A stretch of 64,000 bases of DNA from Halotalea alkalilenta (lineage in GTDB: Bacteria; Pseudomonadota; Gammaproteobacteria; Pseudomonadales; Halomonadaceae), in contig NZ_CP015243.1 of NCBI RefSeq assembly GCF_001648175.1, positions 992,001 to 1,056,000 of the forward strand, given 5' to 3'. Position 1 is the stretch's first letter. Every line of letters starts with the position of its first letter. The position numbers and the translations under genes are program-made. Below, one piece after another: positions 3,419-37,468 of this stretch. The notes under the pieces were generated by a model, which made no database searches, was not told the origin of the DNA, and worked only from the letters and a program-made list of their open reading frames with translations.

Positions 3419-3553
3419 GGTTTTTCCTGATCGAAAAATGTACTGATCGACGGCAATGCGGGACAGGAGCGTTCGATGATACGCCATCGCCGTGCGGCGT
3501 TGGCCGGCAATGCTATGCTGGGGCGGTGTTTAGATTCCCATCAGGATGTCTTC

Positions 3554-4171
3554 ATGAAGAAATGCGTCATCTCCCTCGCGCTCTGCAGCCTGCCGCTGAT
3601 CGGTTCGCAGGCCTTCGCTTTCAGTCTCAACGACGTCAACGAGGCGATGAATCGCGCCGACTCTGCGTCGCAGCAGGGTGCCAGCGCGCTCCAGCAGGGT
3701 AACCAGCGCTTCCAGCAACTGCAGCAAGGCTCCCAGCAGCAGGCGGCGCAGGTCGGCACCACCGAAGGCAACTTGAACGATGCAAGCCAGCTGGTGGACT
3801 CCCTCACCAGCCAGCTTGGTGTCAACCGCCAGCAGGCGATCGGCGGGGCCGCTGCGATGCTGGCCCAGGCCAAGGGCGCGCTCGGCGACAATCAGTTCAG
3901 CCAGCTTTCCAACCAGGCGCCTGGGATCGACGGCCTGCTGTCGAGCGCCAACGCCACCGGCGGTGGCTCGTTGCTTTCGCAGGTCACGAGCCTCGCCGGC
4001 GGACAAGGGCAGTCCCAGGGCGGCGATGGGATGGTCGATGCCGCCTTCAAAGCGCTTGGCATGGATAGCTCGATGACCAGCCAGTTCGCCCCGGTGATGC
4101 TGCAGTACTTCGGCGGGCAGGGCGTATCGAGCGGTCTGCTTTCGTCGCTGTCGAGTCTCTGGGGCGCCTGA
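3554..4171 (+). CDS. DUF2780 exported protein
   Basis: 205 aa. A typical Sec signal peptide (MKKCVISLALCSLPLIGSQ then AFA) is followed by a Gln-rich low-complexity segment (about residues 35-75, rich in QQG repeats). The C-terminal domain matches the VcgC/VcgE-like DUF2780 family (QLVDSLTSQLGVNRQQAIGGA, ending in small Gly/Ser-rich helices). Start chosen at 3554, with AGGA 8 nt upstream and the signal peptide beginning there. Periplasmic location is likely; function is unknown. It is single and monocistronic between divergent and convergent neighbours. Confidence 0.85.
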   Translation: MKKCVISLALCSLPLIGSQAFAFSLNDVNEAMNRADSASQQGASALQQGNQRFQQLQQGSQQQAAQVGTTEGNLNDASQLVDSLTSQLGVNRQQAIGGAAAMLAQAKGALGDNQFSQLSNQAPGIDGLLSSANATGGGSLLSQVTSLAGGQGQSQGGDGMVDAAFKALGMDSSMTSQFAPVMLQYFGGQGVSSGLLSSLSSLWGA

Positions 4172-30647: not shown

Positions 30648-31459
30648 CCGCGGCTACTACGCCTAGCGACAGCGTGGCGGTGAGCCGTCCTCGAGACGCC
30701 GCTAGCAGGCGGTTCTCGTCCAGCGAGTGGCCCAGGCCTACGAACGTCGGAAGGGGCGCTCAGGTCCCCCGGATTGATGCTGGATCTGGTTGGCGATGGC
30801 CTGGCAGTGAATCGCAAGACCGTCGCTGCCAGCCTGCTACGCCAGGGGCTTCGCGCCAAGGCGGCGCGCAAGTTCAAGATGACGATGAACTCGCGACACT
30901 CGCTGCCGGTGGCGCCCAACTTGCTGGGGCAAGACTTCACCGCCATGTTGCCGAACCAGAAATGGGCCGGCTACATCACCTAACTGGCGACCTGTGAAGG
31001 ATGGCTCTACTTGTCGGTGCGATCGACCTATTCTCACGCAAGGTGATCGACTGGGCGATGGGTGAGCGGATGACCGCCGACCTAGCCGGGGAGGCGCTCC
31101 AGATGGCGCTGTGGTGCCGTCAGATGCCCAAGAAGGTGATCGTACATTCGGATCGCGGCAGCCAATACGTCTCGATCCGCTATACCAAGCGCTTGGCTGA
31201 AGTTGGGGTCGAGCCTTCGGTGGGCAGCGTGGGCGACTCCTATGACAATGCCATGGCCGAGACCATCAATGGCCTGTACAAGGCCGAGGTGATCCATCGT
31301 CGTTTCTGGCAGAATCGGGAGGCCGTGGAGCTGGCGACGCTGGAGTGGGTGGACTGGTTCAACCACCGGCGGTTACTGGAGACCATCGGAAATATGCCGC
31401 TGGCAGAAGCCGAAGCTATCTATTATCAGCAAATTACCGAGTCGGCCCAAGCGGCATGA
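30648..31459 (+). pseudogene. Decayed IS3-family transposase (OrfB)
   Basis: Plus-strand remnant. The HTH/zinc-like N-terminal part (RKTVAASLLRQGLRAKAARKF) and NSRHSLPVAPNLLGQDFT are readable, then a TAA nonsense codon at 30981-30983 replaces a Tyr codon (GYIT-stop-LATCEGWLYL), followed by a one-base frameshift near 31017. The DDE core is still visible: IDLFSRKVIDW, VHSDRGSQY and SYDNAMAETING. At least one more frameshift lies near 30765. Not functional. Confidence 0.85.
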
Positions 31460-32447: not shown

Positions 32448-33626
32448 CTACTCAGTGGGCATGATCCGCATCATGAATTCATCGAACAAGGGTACTGTGA
32501 ATGCGGTGTCGCCGTGGCTGGGGCTCCATACCATGCCCTTCGAAATCAGATTATTTCTTGTGGGCCCGAGCGACGTAACCTTAACGTTTAATTGGCTGGC
32601 TATATCTCCCGAGCGGTGTGGTCCTGGCCCAAGCTCGGCCATTGCTCGCATGTAGCGTTTTTCTGCAGGCGTAAGTCGGTCAAATCTCACCCGGAAAAAG
32701 CTTTCATCTAGTGCTGCTAGCGCAGTGACAGTCGCAGACTGTACATCTTTCGCTGTTATTGGAGATTCCTCAGCAACATCCCAAGCGTGCTTTCCCCATT
32801 CCTGGAGAAAATAGGGGTACCCGTGGGTATGTTCTACAATTCTTTCAATAGCTTCGGCCTCAAACTCGACCCCCTCTTCAATAGCAGGCTTCGAGATGGC
32901 CACTCCGGCTGATTCAGAATCTAGCGGGCCAATCATTGGGAAGTCAAAAAGCCGTTCGGCATATGATTTTGCGTTTCCTGCTCGCGCAAGAAGCTGAGGA
33001 AGTCCGGCGCCGATGACGGTGAGTGGTAGCTCTTTCTGGTTACATCGATGCAGCGCAGAAATCAGTGCCCCAAACTGTAGTTCCTCTATGTATTGCATCT
33101 CGTCGATGAAAATAACTAGAGCAGTTTCAGCACTTTTGGCTGCTTGACCACAGGTTTCGAGAAGATCCGATAAGTCAGATTCTAAATCACCATTATCTGC
33201 CAAGCCTGGAATGGCCTCCGCATCAATCCCAACTTGAATGTCCTTATATGTAACTTTCATAGCGGAAACGAATCCAGCCAAGGCCTGAAGACCACGCTTG
33301 GCCAAGCCTTTAGCTGATTCGACCCGGCTGAGGCTGAGTAGAGCCACACGCAGCTGTGGCGACAGGATCGCAGGTAGGGAGCGATCTTCGGGGGCCTCTA
33401 TGCGGATAGTTCTGGCGCCTATAGCTTCAACGTCTTTGCGCATCTGATCCAGCAGCACGGTTTTCCCAACCCCACGCAGCCCTACCATCAAGACACTTTT
33501 ATCTGACCTACCTCTAATCAGCCTTGCAATACATGTGGTTACTCGTCTTCTGATCTCGTCGCGGCCAGCCAGCTCTGGTGGCCTCGTGCCAGCGCCAGGG
33601 GCGTAAGGGTTAGTGACTGGATCCAT
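32448..33626 (-). CDS. Orphan AAA ATPase (archaeal-ATPase/ORC-like)
   Basis: 392 aa. Walker A GLRGVGKT at residues 49-56, Walker B ALVIFIDEMQY, sensor region LPLTVIGAGLPQL and a C-terminal winged-helix (PHRSGDIASQLNVKVTSLGPTRNNLISKGMV). This fold is close to STAND/ORC-type NTPases with a DNA-binding wHTH. Start 33626 has GGAGG 6 nt ahead. No partner gene; its location beside an island edge suggests acquired DNA. Role unknown. Confidence 0.8.
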   Translation of the reverse strand: MDPVTNPYAPGAGTRPPELAGRDEIRRRVTTCIARLIRGRSDKSVLMVGLRGVGKTVLLDQMRKDVEAIGARTIRIEAPEDRSLPAILSPQLRVALLSLSRVESAKGLAKRGLQALAGFVSAMKVTYKDIQVGIDAEAIPGLADNGDLESDLSDLLETCGQAAKSAETALVIFIDEMQYIEELQFGALISALHRCNQKELPLTVIGAGLPQLLARAGNAKSYAERLFDFPMIGPLDSESAGVAISKPAIEEGVEFEAEAIERIVEHTHGYPYFLQEWGKHAWDVAEESPITAKDVQSATVTALAALDESFFRVRFDRLTPAEKRYMRAMAELGPGPHRSGDIASQLNVKVTSLGPTRNNLISKGMVWSPSHGDTAFTVPLFDEFMMRIMPTE

Positions 33627-33941
33627 GAATACCTCCAATTTGAGCACTTTTAGGGAGTTTATCATAAAAAGATAAATTGACTAAAATTGGCCAAAAAGAC
33701 CATGTGGTCGCACCAGCCTCGGTCCTCGCTTTTAGCCCCCTTCTTCCTATGGCACGTACCTAGCGTTCTTCACGTCGCTCCGCTTTTCCCACCCATACCT
33801 ATCCCCGCGATCTCTTGGTCGTCCATGTCGGGCCTCTACGAGACCTGATCGAGCAGCTCTGCCGTAGCCTTGGCGGTTTGCCCCGGGGCTTGGGCCTGCC
33901 TGGGTCATCCTAGGGGCTTGGGCGCAAGTCAAAAATATCGC

Positions 33942-33972
33942 TTGAACCTGTACCTGCTATAGGTTTTACGCT
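33942..33972 (+). promoter_or_regulatory. MerR-family metal-responsive promoter
   Basis: TTGAAC (-35, 33942-33947) and TACGCT (-10, 33967-33972) are 19 bp apart, the overlong spacer used by MerR regulators. The spacer carries the dyad AACCT (33945-33949) / AGGTT (33961-33965), with inner GTA/TAT resembling CadR/PbrR-type half-sites more than CueR. It lies 53 bp before the HMA gene. No merR-type gene is in the window. The rest of 33666-34025 is empty. Confidence 0.75.
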
Positions 33973-34025
33973 CCGGTCATAAGTAGTGGCTGCTGAGGCC
34001 TTCACCCCTGTTCAGGAGTACCACC

Positions 34026-34262
34026 ATGACCCAGAACTCGAACCTGCGAAGCATCACCCTGCCGGTCATTGGCATGGACTGCGGCGGCTGCGCGCGCGGC
34101 GTGGACAAGGCGGTGCGCGCGCTGTCCGGCGTCGATGACGTGCAGGTCTCGCTCGACCCTGCCCAAGTGGTGGTGCGGATCGATCCAGCCCTGGTCAGCC
34201 GCGAGGCGCTGGTCACGGCGATCGAGGATGCCGGGTTCGACGTGCCAGCATCGCAGCCGTGA
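34026..34262 (+). CDS. Heavy-metal-associated (HMA) metallochaperone
   Basis: 78 aa. Single ferredoxin-like HMA domain with metal ligands in GMDCGGC (residues 16-22) and the standard VSLDPAQVVVRIDP strand and AIEDAGF end. It would carry a soft metal ion to the adjacent ATPase. AGGAG lies about 8 nt upstream. Stop overlaps the ATPase GTG start as GTGA. First gene under the MerR-type promoter. Confidence 0.9.
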   Translation: MTQNSNLRSITLPVIGMDCGGCARGVDKAVRALSGVDDVQVSLDPAQVVVRIDPALVSREALVTAIEDAGFDVPASQP

Positions 34263-36385
34263 TCCAGATCCTCGAACTGCCGGTGGCGGGCATGGACTGC
34301 GCGGCGTGTGCGCGAAAGGCCCAGCGTGCGCTGATGAAAGTGCCCGGTGTGCAGAGCGCCGATGTGCTGCTCAACGCTGAGAAGGCGGTCATCATGTTCG
34401 ATACTGGCATGGCGACGGCTGGTGCGCTGCGCGCGACGATCGAGAAGGTCGGCTTCTCGGTCCCGCAGCCGACGCCGGTCGGGGATGGGGCCGACGCAAC
34501 GCCACGCCATGTGCTGGAAGCCAAGACGCTGCAGCGTCAGCTATTCACCACGCTAGGCATTCTGTTCGGTGCCATCCTGTTCGTGGTGGTGATCGGCGAG
34601 GGCCTTGGGGTGTTCGACCAGCTCACCGCGCGCGTGCCCTGGTGGGCTGGCGTGCTGGCGGTGGTGGCTTTCGGCTACCCGGTCTTCGCGGGCGTGCTGC
34701 GCTGCGCGCTGCGACGCGAGGTGACCAGTCACACTTTGATGACGGTAGGTGCGATCGCTGCGCTGGCCATCGGCCAGTGGGCCACTGCTGCGATCGTTGT
34801 GTTCTTCATGCGCGTTGGTGAGTTCACCGAGCGCTTCACGAGCGAGCGTGCGCGCCGGCTGCTCAAGGAGCTGACGGCGCTGGCACCGCAAACCGCCCGC
34901 GTGCTGCGCGATGGCGTCGAGCGCGAAGTCGCCGTCGAGACCATCTCGCCGGGCGAGGTGGTCATCGTGCGCCCAGGTGAGCGCGTACCTGTGGATGGCG
35001 TGGTGCTGGAGGGCCAAGCGACGTTCGACCAGGCCGCGATCACTGGCGAAAGCATGCCGGTGGAGGCCGAGCCTGGAGACAAGGTCTATGCGGCGACCCT
35101 GGCCAAGCTCGGCCACGTCAAGCTGCGCGCCGAGCGTATTGGCCGCGACACCACCTTCGGGCGCGCGGTGCAGCTGGTCGAGGATGCCGAGGCCAACCGT
35201 GGCAAGGTCCAGCGGGTGGCCGACCGGTTCAGCGCCTGGTACCTGCCAGTGGTCGCCTCCATCGCCCTTCTGACCTGGCTGCTCAGTGGCAACATCCTGG
35301 CCACCGTGGCGGTGCTGGTGGTGGCCTGCTCGTGCTCGTTCGCACTGGCCACGCCGATCGCGATGATGGCCTCGGTCGGTGCCGCTGCGCGCCAGGGCCT
35401 GCTGATCAAGGGCGGCAGGGTCATCGAAGCCTTGGTAGGTTGCGACGTGATGCTGGTGGACAAGACCGGCACGCTGACCACGGGGCGCCCGCGCGTCACC
35501 GACGTAGTGCCACTTGGCGAGTGGAATGAGGCGGCGCTGCTGTGCCTGGCGGCGACGGCCGAACGCCATTCGGAACATCCGCTCGCCGAGGCGGTACGGC
35601 GGCTGGCCGAGGAGCGGACCATGGCGCCGGATGAACCTGCACGCTTCGAGTCCTTGCCCGGGCGCGGCGTGCGCGCGGTGATCGACGGGCGGACGGTCGA
35701 GATCGGCAATCGCCGCATGCTGCCCGCGGGAGCCGAGGTGGACGCTGTCGCAGGCATCGCTGAGCGGCTCGAAGCCGAGGGGAAGAGTCTGTTGTTCATG
35801 GTGGTGGATGGGCAACTGGCCGGCCTGTTCGCGGCGCAGGACACGCTGCGTGCGGAGGTGGCCGATGCGCTGGTCGCCGTGCGGGCCGCGGGTATCGGCC
35901 GCATCGAGCTTCTGACCGGCGACAACGAGCGTACCGCCGCCGCCCTCGCCGCGCCGCTGGGCCTGGGCTATCGCGCGGGTTTGCTGCCGGAGGACAAGAT
36001 TCGCATCGTGCGTGAACTGCAGCAGCGGGGCCATCGCGTCGTGATGGTCGGCGACGGGGTCAACGACGCGCCGGCGTTGGCCCAGGCCGATGTCGGCATC
36101 GCCATGGGGGGCGGTACCGACGTCGCCATGGAGGCCGCTCACATCGTGTTGATGCGCGAGGACTGGCGGCTCGTCGCCGAGTCGGTCCACATCGCGCGGC
36201 GCACCATGGGGGTGGTGCGCACCAACATAGGTTTCACCGCGCTGTATAATCTCGTGGGCCTGTCGCTCGCGGCCTTCGGTTTGCTGCCGCCTATCTATGC
36301 GGCGGCGCTGCAGTCGATCCCGGACATCGGCATACTGGCCAATTCGTCCAGGTTGATCCGCAACAGGAAGGCCGCCAATGACTGA
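34259..36385 (+). CDS. P1B-type heavy-metal ATPase with CSC membrane motif
   Basis: 708 aa, GTG start. N-terminal HMA domain (GMDCAAC at 11-17), six to eight membrane helices, actuator TGES at 262-265, phosphorylation site Asp401 in DKTGTLT, HP motif in SEHPLAEAV, ATP-binding GDGVNDAP. The TM metal motif is CSC at 357-359 (VVACSCSFALATP) where the family norm is CPC, SPC or TPC. The last helix has SIPDIGILANSSRL, with an Asp placed like the Zn/Cd/Pb subgroup. Exports a soft metal from the cytoplasm; specificity uncertain. Confidence 0.92.
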   Translation: MIQILELPVAGMDCAACARKAQRALMKVPGVQSADVLLNAEKAVIMFDTGMATAGALRATIEKVGFSVPQPTPVGDGADATPRHVLEAKTLQRQLFTTLGILFGAILFVVVIGEGLGVFDQLTARVPWWAGVLAVVAFGYPVFAGVLRCALRREVTSHTLMTVGAIAALAIGQWATAAIVVFFMRVGEFTERFTSERARRLLKELTALAPQTARVLRDGVEREVAVETISPGEVVIVRPGERVPVDGVVLEGQATFDQAAITGESMPVEAEPGDKVYAATLAKLGHVKLRAERIGRDTTFGRAVQLVEDAEANRGKVQRVADRFSAWYLPVVASIALLTWLLSGNILATVAVLVVACSCSFALATPIAMMASVGAAARQGLLIKGGRVIEALVGCDVMLVDKTGTLTTGRPRVTDVVPLGEWNEAALLCLAATAERHSEHPLAEAVRRLAEERTMAPDEPARFESLPGRGVRAVIDGRTVEIGNRRMLPAGAEVDAVAGIAERLEAEGKSLLFMVVDGQLAGLFAAQDTLRAEVADALVAVRAAGIGRIELLTGDNERTAAALAAPLGLGYRAGLLPEDKIRIVRELQQRGHRVVMVGDGVNDAPALAQADVGIAMGGGTDVAMEAAHIVLMREDWRLVAESVHIARRTMGVVRTNIGFTALYNLVGLSLAAFGLLPPIYAAALQSIPDIGILANSSRLIRNRKAAND

Positions 36386-36821
36386 TGCAGCAGTATCGGA
36401 TCGCGCAAAGAGCGGCTGGGCGCTGCTGTTCGCCGCGTGGCTCGTAGCACTGGGGGCTTCCCTGGTAGTGCTCTTCGTCGGCGAGGTGATGGGCCAGGCA
36501 CCGTGCAATCTATGCTGGTTCCAACGCGCCTTCATGTTCCCACTGGCCATCGTGCTCGGGGTGGCCTGCCTGCGCACCGACTTGGCGAGCTGGCGCTATG
36601 CGCTGCCGCTGGCCGTCGCTGGTCTGCTGGTGGCGGGTTTCCACAGCCTGCTCTACCTGGGGGTGATCCCTGAGCGGATCACGCCCTGCAGCCAGGGCGT
36701 ATCCTGCACCAGTGCCGATATGACCATCCTGAGCGGCCTGCCGCTGCCCCTGCTGGCGTTGGCCGCCTTCGGTGCCATCGTCGTACTGCTTTTAATCACC
36801 CGTGCCAGGAATTTTGCATGA
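36378..36821 (+). CDS. DsbB-family disulfide oxidoreductase
   Basis: 147 aa with four membrane helices. Both redox pairs of DsbB are present: Cys43-x-x-Cys46 (PCNLCWFQR) and Cys104/Cys110 (PCSQGVSC). It would reoxidise a DsbA-like partner using quinone. It overlaps the ATPase by 8 bp and the next gene by ATGA. Shorter than the E. coli DsbB, like the BdbC group that pairs with dedicated thioredoxin-fold partners. Confidence 0.92.
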   Translation: MTDAAVSDRAKSGWALLFAAWLVALGASLVVLFVGEVMGQAPCNLCWFQRAFMFPLAIVLGVACLRTDLASWRYALPLAVAGLLVAGFHSLLYLGVIPERITPCSQGVSCTSADMTILSGLPLPLLALAAFGAIVVLLLITRARNFA

Positions 36822-37468
36822 CCCGACGTACCAAGATCGTCATCGCCACTGCCTTCATCGCCCTGGTGGCCTTCGCCGTGGCGGCCATTGTCTATGATCG
36901 CATTAGCCGGCAGCAGGCCGCCGACCAGGCTGCCGCCCAGCTCGATGTCATGGTCCGGGATCATTCGCCGGCCATAGGGTCCGCCGACGCTGCGGTCACT
37001 ATCGTTGAGTTCTTCGACCCCGCCTGCGAGGCTTGCCGGGCCTTCTACCCCTACGTCAAGCAGATCCTGGCTGCCTATCCGCGCGAGGCGCGCCTGGTGA
37101 TCCGATACACGCCATTTCATCGCGAGGCCTCGATCGTAGGGGTGCAGGTCATGGAGGCGGCGCGGGACCAGGGGCGCTTCGAACCCGTGCTGGAGGCACT
37201 GCTCGAAACGCAGCCGGTGTGGGCCAGCCACGAGGCGCCGGCGACAGAGCGTGCTTGGGAGTTCGCCGAGGCCGCTGGGCTGGATTTGCAGCGTGCCCGC
37301 ACCTACATCGCTTCCGGCGCGGTGGACAAGCTGCTCGAGCAGGATGTCGCCGACCTGCAGGCCGTTGGCGTGCGGGGAACACCTACGTTCTTCGTCAATG
37401 GCAAGCCGCTGGCCGAGCTGAACCCTCGGTCGCTGTACGAAATGGTGAAAAGTGAGGCCGAGCGCTAA
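36818..37468 (+). CDS. Membrane-anchored DsbA-like thiol oxidoreductase
   Basis: 216 aa. One N-terminal anchor (about 7-26), then a thioredoxin fold with active site Cys70-E-A-Cys73 (FFDPACEACRAF), a helical insertion and cis-Pro loop VRGTPTFFVNG. This is the BdbD/DsbA-DsbG type that stays membrane-tethered. ATG overlaps the DsbB-like stop. Together with DsbB it forms a redox relay within the metal operon. Confidence 0.92.
   Translation: MTRRTKIVIATAFIALVAFAVAAIVYDRISRQQAADQAAAQLDVMVRDHSPAIGSADAAVTIVEFFDPACEACRAFYPYVKQILAAYPREARLVIRYTPFHREASIVGVQVMEAARDQGRFEPVLEALLETQPVWASHEAPATERAWEFAEAAGLDLQRARTYIASGAVDKLLEQDVADLQAVGVRGTPTFFVNGKPLAELNPRSLYEMVKSEAER

Follow-up and report, generated by a model that had tools for sequence, protein, structure and literature searches.

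What does a disulfide-forming pair of thiol oxidases contribute to an operon for metal export? The question is raised by a 64,000-nucleotide stretch of Halotalea alkalilenta (contig NZ_CP015243.1, positions 992001-1056000 of a single-contig genome of 4.39 Mb; hereafter the window), in which genes for a small HMA-domain protein, a P1B-type ATPase, a DsbB-like protein and a DsbA-like protein lie behind one promoter (Table 1). Operons of the CadR type, P1B pumps and pairs of Dsb proteins have each been described before. It is somewhat probable that the four genes here form a resistance operon induced by metal through an activator of the CadR/PbrR type, in which export would go together with extra thiol oxidation that shields periplasmic cysteines. 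A broader proposal is made tentatively, namely that the BdbC/BdbD-like pair is a recurring, mobile and regulated part of divalent soft-metal resistance in Pseudomonadota, a 'thiol lock' that would be induced with export, shield envelope cysteines and be joined to at least three P1B subtypes.

Table 1. The promoter and the four genes of the operon, numbered from the first position of the window.
Feature	Position	Strand	Characteristics	Model match
CadR/PbrR-type promoter-operator	33942-33972	+	-35 TTGAAC, 19-bp spacer, -10 TACGCT, imperfect dyad ACCTGTACCTGCTATAGGT	
Small HMA-domain protein, putative cytosolic metallochaperone	34026-34262	+	78 aa, GMDCGGC	PF00403, 54.7 bits (cut-off 24.8)
P1B-type metal ATPase	34259-36385	+	708 aa, GTG start, single N-terminal HMA (GMDCAAC), CSC in M4, YN in M5, PDIGILANSSRL in M6	TIGR01525, 579 bits
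DsbB-like thiol oxidase resembling BdbC	36378-36821	+	147 aa, C43xxC46 and C104...C110	PF02600, 37.4 bits (cut-off 22.1)
DsbA-like thiol oxidase	36818-37468	+	216 aa, CEAC active site, TPT cis-Pro loop, long N-terminal helix	PF13462, 84.8 bits; PF01323, 52.1 bits

The four overlapping genes and the promoter with its 19-bp spacer are present as a preliminary description of this DNA had reported them, and Pfam and NCBIfam models back each family (for the ATPase, E1-E2_ATPase at 174.8, Hydrolase at 120.1 and one N-terminal HMA at 52.1 bits). The genes overlap by 4, 8 and 4 bp in the order of Table 1. These overlaps had been read as showing that the proteins are made together; they fit a coupled translation of the four genes, which is less than proof of it. 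Likewise, the 'fusing' of export with a thiol relay in the title of that description applies to overlapping genes and not to joined proteins, as four separate proteins are encoded. All four genes are under purifying selection, with ratios of nonsynonymous to synonymous divergence (dN/dS) of 0-0.25 against H. alkalilenta DSM 17697 and 0.13-0.23 against a copy in Diaphorobacter. The individual values are 0.17 and 0.13 for the ATPase, 0.25 and 0.23 for the DsbB-like gene and 0.19 and 0.19 for the DsbA-like gene, while the HMA gene has a dN of 0 and a dS of 0.25 against DSM 17697.

The promoter matches a CadR-type consensus at 23 of 25 positions, the consensus having been built, not blind, from known CadR-type sites and the window's own site. 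It is the top site on both strands of the window, and in ten shuffled windows the maximum was 18 in two and below 18 in eight. It is missing from a generic sigma-70 scan, which permits only spacers of 16-18 bp and is uninformative for one of 19 bp. The site is identical in DSM 17697 and similar to the operon promoters of Diaphorobacter and Hylemonella, and an operator-like site stands upstream at all five loci known to hold the four genes (position 33942 in the window, and 3562, 6862, 2982 and 2494 of the fetched DSM 17697, Diaphorobacter, Hylemonella and Burkholderiales loci). The MerR-type promoter proposed earlier is thereby borne out as a CadR-type dyad in a promoter of the 19-/20-bp spacer class, and the operator pattern together with a partner site elsewhere in the genome points to the CadR/PbrR type. 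Upstream of the promoter in DSM 17697 (3480-3560 of that locus) lies an expanded GGGGCTA repeat, present in the window as one or two copies.

CadR queries found no match in the 64-kb window, leaving the locus without a cadR or pbrR gene of its own. An adjacent regulator was considered and rejected, since a genome-wide search for MerR proteins gave five PF13411 (MerR_1) matches, all outside the window. One of these regions, at 3368486 and about 2.0-2.3 Mb from the operon, holds a cadR homologue divergent from a CDF transporter gene. Its product is 50% identical to the Diaphorobacter CadR and scores 172.7 bits on the CadR-PbrR equivalog model (cut-off 151.45). When the operator pattern was searched genome-wide with up to three mismatches, two places were found in each of two Halotalea genomes, namely the four-gene operon (no mismatches) and the gap between cadR and the CDF gene (two mismatches), and none with a reversed control. 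These paired sites suggest a CadR regulon of two operons, and the four genes are most likely part of a regulon of Cd(II)/Pb(II) type that is controlled in trans. The CDF transporter served by this second operator site (L103, 308-1378) has a histidine-rich N-terminus.

In divalent-metal MerR regulators one cysteine is essential in all members tested so far (PMC3431237). This cysteine is present in the distant Halotalea CadR homologue (L103) and in the regulators of the Diaphorobacter, Hylemonella and Burkholderiales operons; the Halotalea and Diaphorobacter proteins, the two of these four that were scored on the CadR-PbrR model, both pass its cut-off. Among the other MerR-type regulators of the genome, L105 has the cysteine and L107 does not, with L104 and L106 standing outside the alignment. 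L104 is encoded beside a CopA-like ATPase gene and scores best on Zn-responsive models, far under their cut-offs, and not on CueR.

The pump had been taken for an ordinary soft-metal P1B ATPase, a view that had to be given up, as CPC is replaced by CSC and the residues in M5 and M6 are those of neither the Cu(I) nor the Zn/Cd subtype. All of the 120 best relatives among 7947 share CSC in M4 (two of them being the operon ATPase itself). In a tree of 51 hand-chosen rows, the CSC clade stands apart from the CPC (Zn/Cd and Cu) and SPC types with support of 100/100, on a long stem of the kind for which the program warns that joins of long branches may be false. The P1B-2 signature for Zn, Cd and Pb consists of CPC in M4, Lys in M5 and Asp-x-Gly in M6, and is seen in the aligned CPC loci; the operon ATPase differs from it by CSC, by YN, by its separate clade and by a displaced PDIG, four residues nearer the conserved Asn than the zinc-type Asp position. 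Similarly, the P1B-1 signature for Cu(I) consists of CPC, YN and MxxSS, as in the genome's own CopA-like ATPase (L002; CPC, YN, MALSS), and the operon ATPase has YN alone in common with it. A Zn/Cd assignment based on the M6 aspartate was dropped because the aligned M5 and M6 residues disagree. Because these features taken together fit neither subtype, the ATPase sequence does not settle the substrate.

The CSC clade may be the P1B-7 class, of which CSC would be the mark. P1B-7 is described as a subclass defined by sequence only, with unknown substrate (PMC4932525, PMC7558416). A few relatives of the CSC ATPase have C-terminal tails with CGCC-like cysteine repeats.

Absence of the four-gene arrangement from relatives would have refuted the preliminary description by its own terms, but the arrangement recurs. 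The same genes in the same order are found in DSM 17697 and at three betaproteobacterial loci, namely on Diaphorobacter plasmid pDCB3, in Hylemonella gracilis and in a Burkholderiales metagenome-assembled genome, and the ATPase and DsbB-like genes overlap by exactly 8 bp at all five. On pDCB3 the operator-like site is followed by PCu(A)C, ICMT, HMA, ATPase, DsbB and DsbA genes, then an IS5 element and cadR. The Burkholderiales locus matches both PCu(A)C and ICMT, and the Hylemonella locus ICMT and not PCu(A)C; both also have a cadR homologue downstream of the four genes. In Halotalea, the homologous promoter immediately precedes the HMA gene, and no match to PCu(A)C, ICMT or cadR was found around either operon; the Halotalea operon is therefore a minimal four-gene version.

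When 97 related genomes were searched for the DsbB-like protein, the two Halotalea genomes gave at least 281 bits, 14 others at most 33 bits and 81 no match. Strong matches in only two of the 97 speak for acquisition of the operon within the genus. The Halotalea and Diaphorobacter copies have a synonymous divergence of only 0.6-1.0, which suggests a fairly recent transfer between these distant lineages. One scan of viral contigs for relatives of the ATPase gave a single stretch that fitted the pattern and none that was confirmed.

The DsbB-like protein falls in family PF02600, with two cysteine pairs and four helices. Its predicted structure (41 rows, pLDDT 87.2) has four long helices, and its top four fold matches are all E. 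coli DsbB, albeit weak ones (best E 0.0096, none at or below 0.001). Its best NCBIfam match, to PRK03113, which we take to be the BdbC model, reaches 87.5 bits and stays below the cut-off of 124. The DsbA-like protein passes its Pfam cut-offs (DsbA and Thioredoxin_4) and combines a CxxC motif and a cis-Pro loop with a thioredoxin-type fold bearing a helical insert. In its model (46 rows, pLDDT 96.5), a helix over residues 3-45, probably a membrane anchor plus stalk, precedes a DsbA-type fold whose best matches in the PDB are 3gyk, ScsC and BdbD. The earlier term 'private' for this pair proved apt, as a further DsbB match of 130 bits, the housekeeping protein, is encoded elsewhere in both Halotalea genomes.

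The earlier reading needs a further correction in that the pair is a module of its own, which also accompanies CPC and SPC ATPases as well as CDF, PCu(A)C, SCO and RND genes. Among the best 80 of at least 354 confirmed close DsbB-relative loci, many of them from related strains, DsbA stands at the expected downstream place in 78, with a 4-bp DsbB/DsbA overlap in 71 of these. All 81 aligned rows keep the four DsbB cysteines, and 78 of 79 keep the CxxC of DsbA. Metal-type genes occur in the fetched flanks of 75 of the 80 loci, including CadR-like regulators (47), SCO (38), CDF (33) and PCu(A)C (29), as counted with neighbour queries that were taken from pair-holding loci (L006, L112, L114, L115 and L026) and so favour such neighbours. 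An all-against-all clustering of neighbouring open reading frames was swamped by antisense frames and replaced with these annotated query proteins. Labelled by best query, the ATPases near the pair were CPC at 21, SPC at 13 and CSC at six loci, the last including one copper-type CPC pump (L091) and one unconfirmed label (L050). The divalent-metal cysteine is present in 47 of 50 aligned regulator rows from these loci, after exclusion of four rows without a recognisable helix-turn-helix; the three rows without it resemble fragments or chance open reading frames.

Housekeeping dsbB genes provide a comparison within the same genomes. All 47 pair-holding genomes searched also hold a high-scoring DsbB (best at least 89 bits, the pair class scoring 26-52 bits). 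One housekeeping dsbB was fetched from each of 40 of the 47, four of these loci being cut by a contig end. With the strict gene set, metal-type neighbours were found at 36 of 40 pair loci and at none of the 40 housekeeping loci, and with a wider set at 38 and one, respectively. These counts use the pair-derived neighbour queries named above, and two loci that correspond to query sources (L026, and L029 as the same plasmid as L114) are counted among both the 80 and the 40. In the 1.2 kb upstream, operator-like sites are present at 27 of the 80 pair loci, against 0.5 per 80 in shuffles and none of 40 upstream of housekeeping dsbB (best score 16; one locus with only 909 bases upstream). When whole loci were scanned on both strands, such sites occurred at 57 of 80 pair and 4 of 40 control loci, and sites of 18/25 therefore do occur by chance.

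Several arrangements illustrate this modularity. At L248, L250 and L252, a CadR-like regulator with the divalent-metal cysteine is accompanied by a CPC ATPase, DsbB and DsbA, and the distance from ATPase stop to aligned DsbB start is about 119, 7 and -4 bp, respectively; the regulator at L238 has Phe at the position of that cysteine. At L044, L076 and L079, an SPC ATPase gene lies 26-32 bp behind DsbA, in the order DsbB-DsbA-ATPase. Together with the CSC operons, three ATPase types are thus joined to DsbB-DsbA pairs. Plasmids are frequent carriers, with 260 plasmid records giving a match. For example, two Roseobacter-group plasmids have the order SCO-DsbB-DsbA-PCu(A)C-SCO, an Enterobacter plasmid has LspA-DsbB-DsbA before an RND system, and a Pseudomonas plasmid has a cation transporter, DsbB, DsbA and ICMT beside ars genes. 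On pCAR1 the pair lies beside dmeF, and two Bacilli plasmids have CopC-CopD-DsbA-DsbB; no annotated metal gene was found near the pair of one Paenibacillus plasmid.

How would such a pair serve a metal pump? A soft divalent metal, most likely Cd, Pb or Zn, would rise in the cytosol and cause the distant CadR homologue to activate the 19-bp-spacer promoter. The small HMA protein would then hand the metal to the ATPase, which would pump it into the periplasm. Soft divalent metals bind thiols, and a pump that sends metal into the periplasm would raise the risk to thiols there. Production of the pair alongside the pump would keep cysteines oxidised. The presumably co-translated DsbB and DsbA would supply extra disulfide-forming capacity at the membrane, so that the free cysteines of exported proteins, and the housekeeping DsbA/DsbB relay as well, would become oxidised too fast for the incoming metal to occupy them. 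Mutation of dsbA or dsbB in E. coli reportedly raises sensitivity to Hg and Cd, going by the title of a 1999 study by Stafford. Deletion of dsbA-dsbB in Burkholderia cepacia lowered the minimal inhibitory concentrations of Cd and Zn, for which a reaction with thiols was suggested without verification (PMC11253441).

Several observations weigh against a divalent-metal thiol shield of this kind. The transmembrane motifs of the ATPase match neither the Zn/Cd nor the Cu class, leaving the metal uncertain, and the regulator gene is absent from the operon locus. Two regulators point towards copper, having CueR (cut-off 147.4) as their best model, namely the one beside a CSC ATPase at L044 with 126.2 bits and the one on Roseobacter plasmid L112 with 119.2 bits, both staying below the CueR and the CadR-PbrR cut-offs. 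PCu(A)C, SCO and other genes of copper type are also present in metal islands with the pair. Finally, the metal link weakens with distance. In a sample of 398 Pseudomonadota genomes, 40 match at E <= 1e-20, the window's own included. DsbB and DsbA are both present at all 39 places fetched, of 41 outside the window's own genome, and metal-type neighbours, counted with the same pair-derived queries, occur at only 19 of these 39, most of the places holding more distant pairs. Nine of the 19 rest on a weak CDF match (26-33%) in one small-genome family. A weak CDF match repeatedly precedes the distant DsbB-DsbA pair (L229, L232-L234, L237, L239, L240, L242 and L245). Sorted by identity, all three places with at least 54% (G517, G271 and G446) lie in metal islands, and at 52% one does (G310) and one does not (G181). 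An exclusive metal link of the pair family was therefore rejected; the wider family is not metal-specific, and the subfamily around the window is largely metal-linked.

These observations leave room for other explanations. The pair could be a dedicated folding catalyst for cysteine-bearing envelope metal proteins (PCu(A)C, SCO, ZIP or RND parts) and not a general thiol shield, which we consider unlikely. PCu(A)C and SCO are indeed frequent at the 80 pair loci, and on the two Roseobacter-group plasmids they enclose the pair. However, no PCu(A)C or SCO match was found in the window or around the DSM 17697 operon, where the pair is still under purifying selection, nor at L248, L250 and L252 (the flank of L250 ending at a contig edge). 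Retention of the pair in the minimal Halotalea form, where these genes are not nearby, favours a general shield more than a folding service. Comparably unlikely is that the metal handled by the operon is soft and monovalent, Cu(I) or Ag(I), with the pair draining electrons from Cu(I) or repairing copper-damaged thiols. A Dsb-mediated oxidation of Cu(I) has been proposed for Cupriavidus (PMC10304878), and YN in M5 as in Cu(I) pumps, the L044 regulator and the copper-type genes beside the pair on the two Bacilli plasmids point the same way. The lack of MxxSS in M6 and of CPC in M4 argues against it, as do the GMDCxxC motifs of both HMA domains, the divalent-metal cysteine in the Halotalea, Diaphorobacter, Hylemonella and Burkholderiales regulators and the CadR-PbrR scores of the two that were scored.

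More doubtful still is that the DsbA-like protein is an ScsC-like metal-binding or disulfide-shuffling protein which DsbB merely resets. ScsC is a trimeric isomerase paired with the DsbD-like reductase ScsB, whereas the partner here is a DsbB-type oxidase, overlapping by the usual 4 bp at most pair loci. Fold matches to the DsbA-like model do include ScsC of Salmonella, Proteus and Caulobacter, yet 3gyk matches better and BdbD about equally. That the pair is a mere passenger of mobile metal islands is very improbable. Metal genes cluster on plasmids and many pair copies are plasmid-borne, but a passenger fits poorly with an exact 8-bp overlap at five loci, with pairs joined to three ATPase subtypes, with conserved catalytic cysteines and with a dN/dS of 0.19-0.25 for the pair.

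The surroundings of the operon consist of an AAA ATPase gene on one side and a pirin gene on the other, and these flanks are kept in DSM 17697 over 370 bases upstream and about 500 downstream. The AAA_16-type gene (32448-33665, minus strand) lies directly upstream of the promoter region. Further upstream, an IS3-like transposase remnant or short form (30674-31459, rve domain 31001-31459) sits in a stretch of lower and uneven GC at about 22-34 kb of the window. At the start of the window, a match to an RND-type efflux permease (2-2575) is 27% identical to the Diaphorobacter plasmid permease.

Accounts of metal resistance usually centre on export, sequestration and regulation. Should a private disulfide-forming pair belong to the same regulon, envelope thiol oxidation would be a distinct layer of defence, and the Cd and Hg sensitivity of dsbA and dsbB mutants would gain a natural counterpart in metal islands. 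The presence of close relatives of the pair in toxic-metal clusters of many bacteria suggests that metal resistance regularly includes the oxidation of extracytoplasmic thiols. The minimal four-gene form in Halotalea makes the thiol-lock idea directly testable, and its CSC pump offers an entry to a large ATPase clade without assigned substrate in the literature consulted. In the open-licence literature consulted, no description was found of these genes in combination, of their regulon with control in trans or of a recurrence with pumps of three types, nor of the pair as part of metal islands, which is no proof that none is in print; likewise, no paper in that literature was found to link bdbC/bdbD with cadA, yvgW or copZ.

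Among known systems, the operon is closest in its control to the CadR-cadA and pbr operons of Pseudomonas and Cupriavidus, with which it shares a regulator of the CadR-PbrR family, a promoter with a dyad in a 19-bp spacer and a soft-metal P-type ATPase (PMC1526738, PMC3431237). It differs from both in its non-adjacent regulator, its CSC-clade ATPase and the HMA chaperone as first gene, and from pbr in having a DsbB/DsbA pair where pbr has PbrB/PbrC. If CSC is indeed their mark, the pump may belong with the P1B-7 ATPases. The pair itself recalls BdbC/BdbD of Bacillus, given the sub-cut-off PRK03113 match of the DsbB-like protein and the match of the DsbA-like model to BdbD; in B. subtilis, bdbDC presumably lies beside cadA-copA-copZ. 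Unlike the Bacillus pair, the Halotalea pair overlaps the ATPase gene, stands behind a MerR-type promoter and occurs in a Gram-negative host with a housekeeping DsbB. As in the ScsABCD copper-sensitivity suppressors, a DsbA-fold protein is linked to metal tolerance, but its adjacent partner here is a DsbB-type oxidase and not a DsbD-type reductase.

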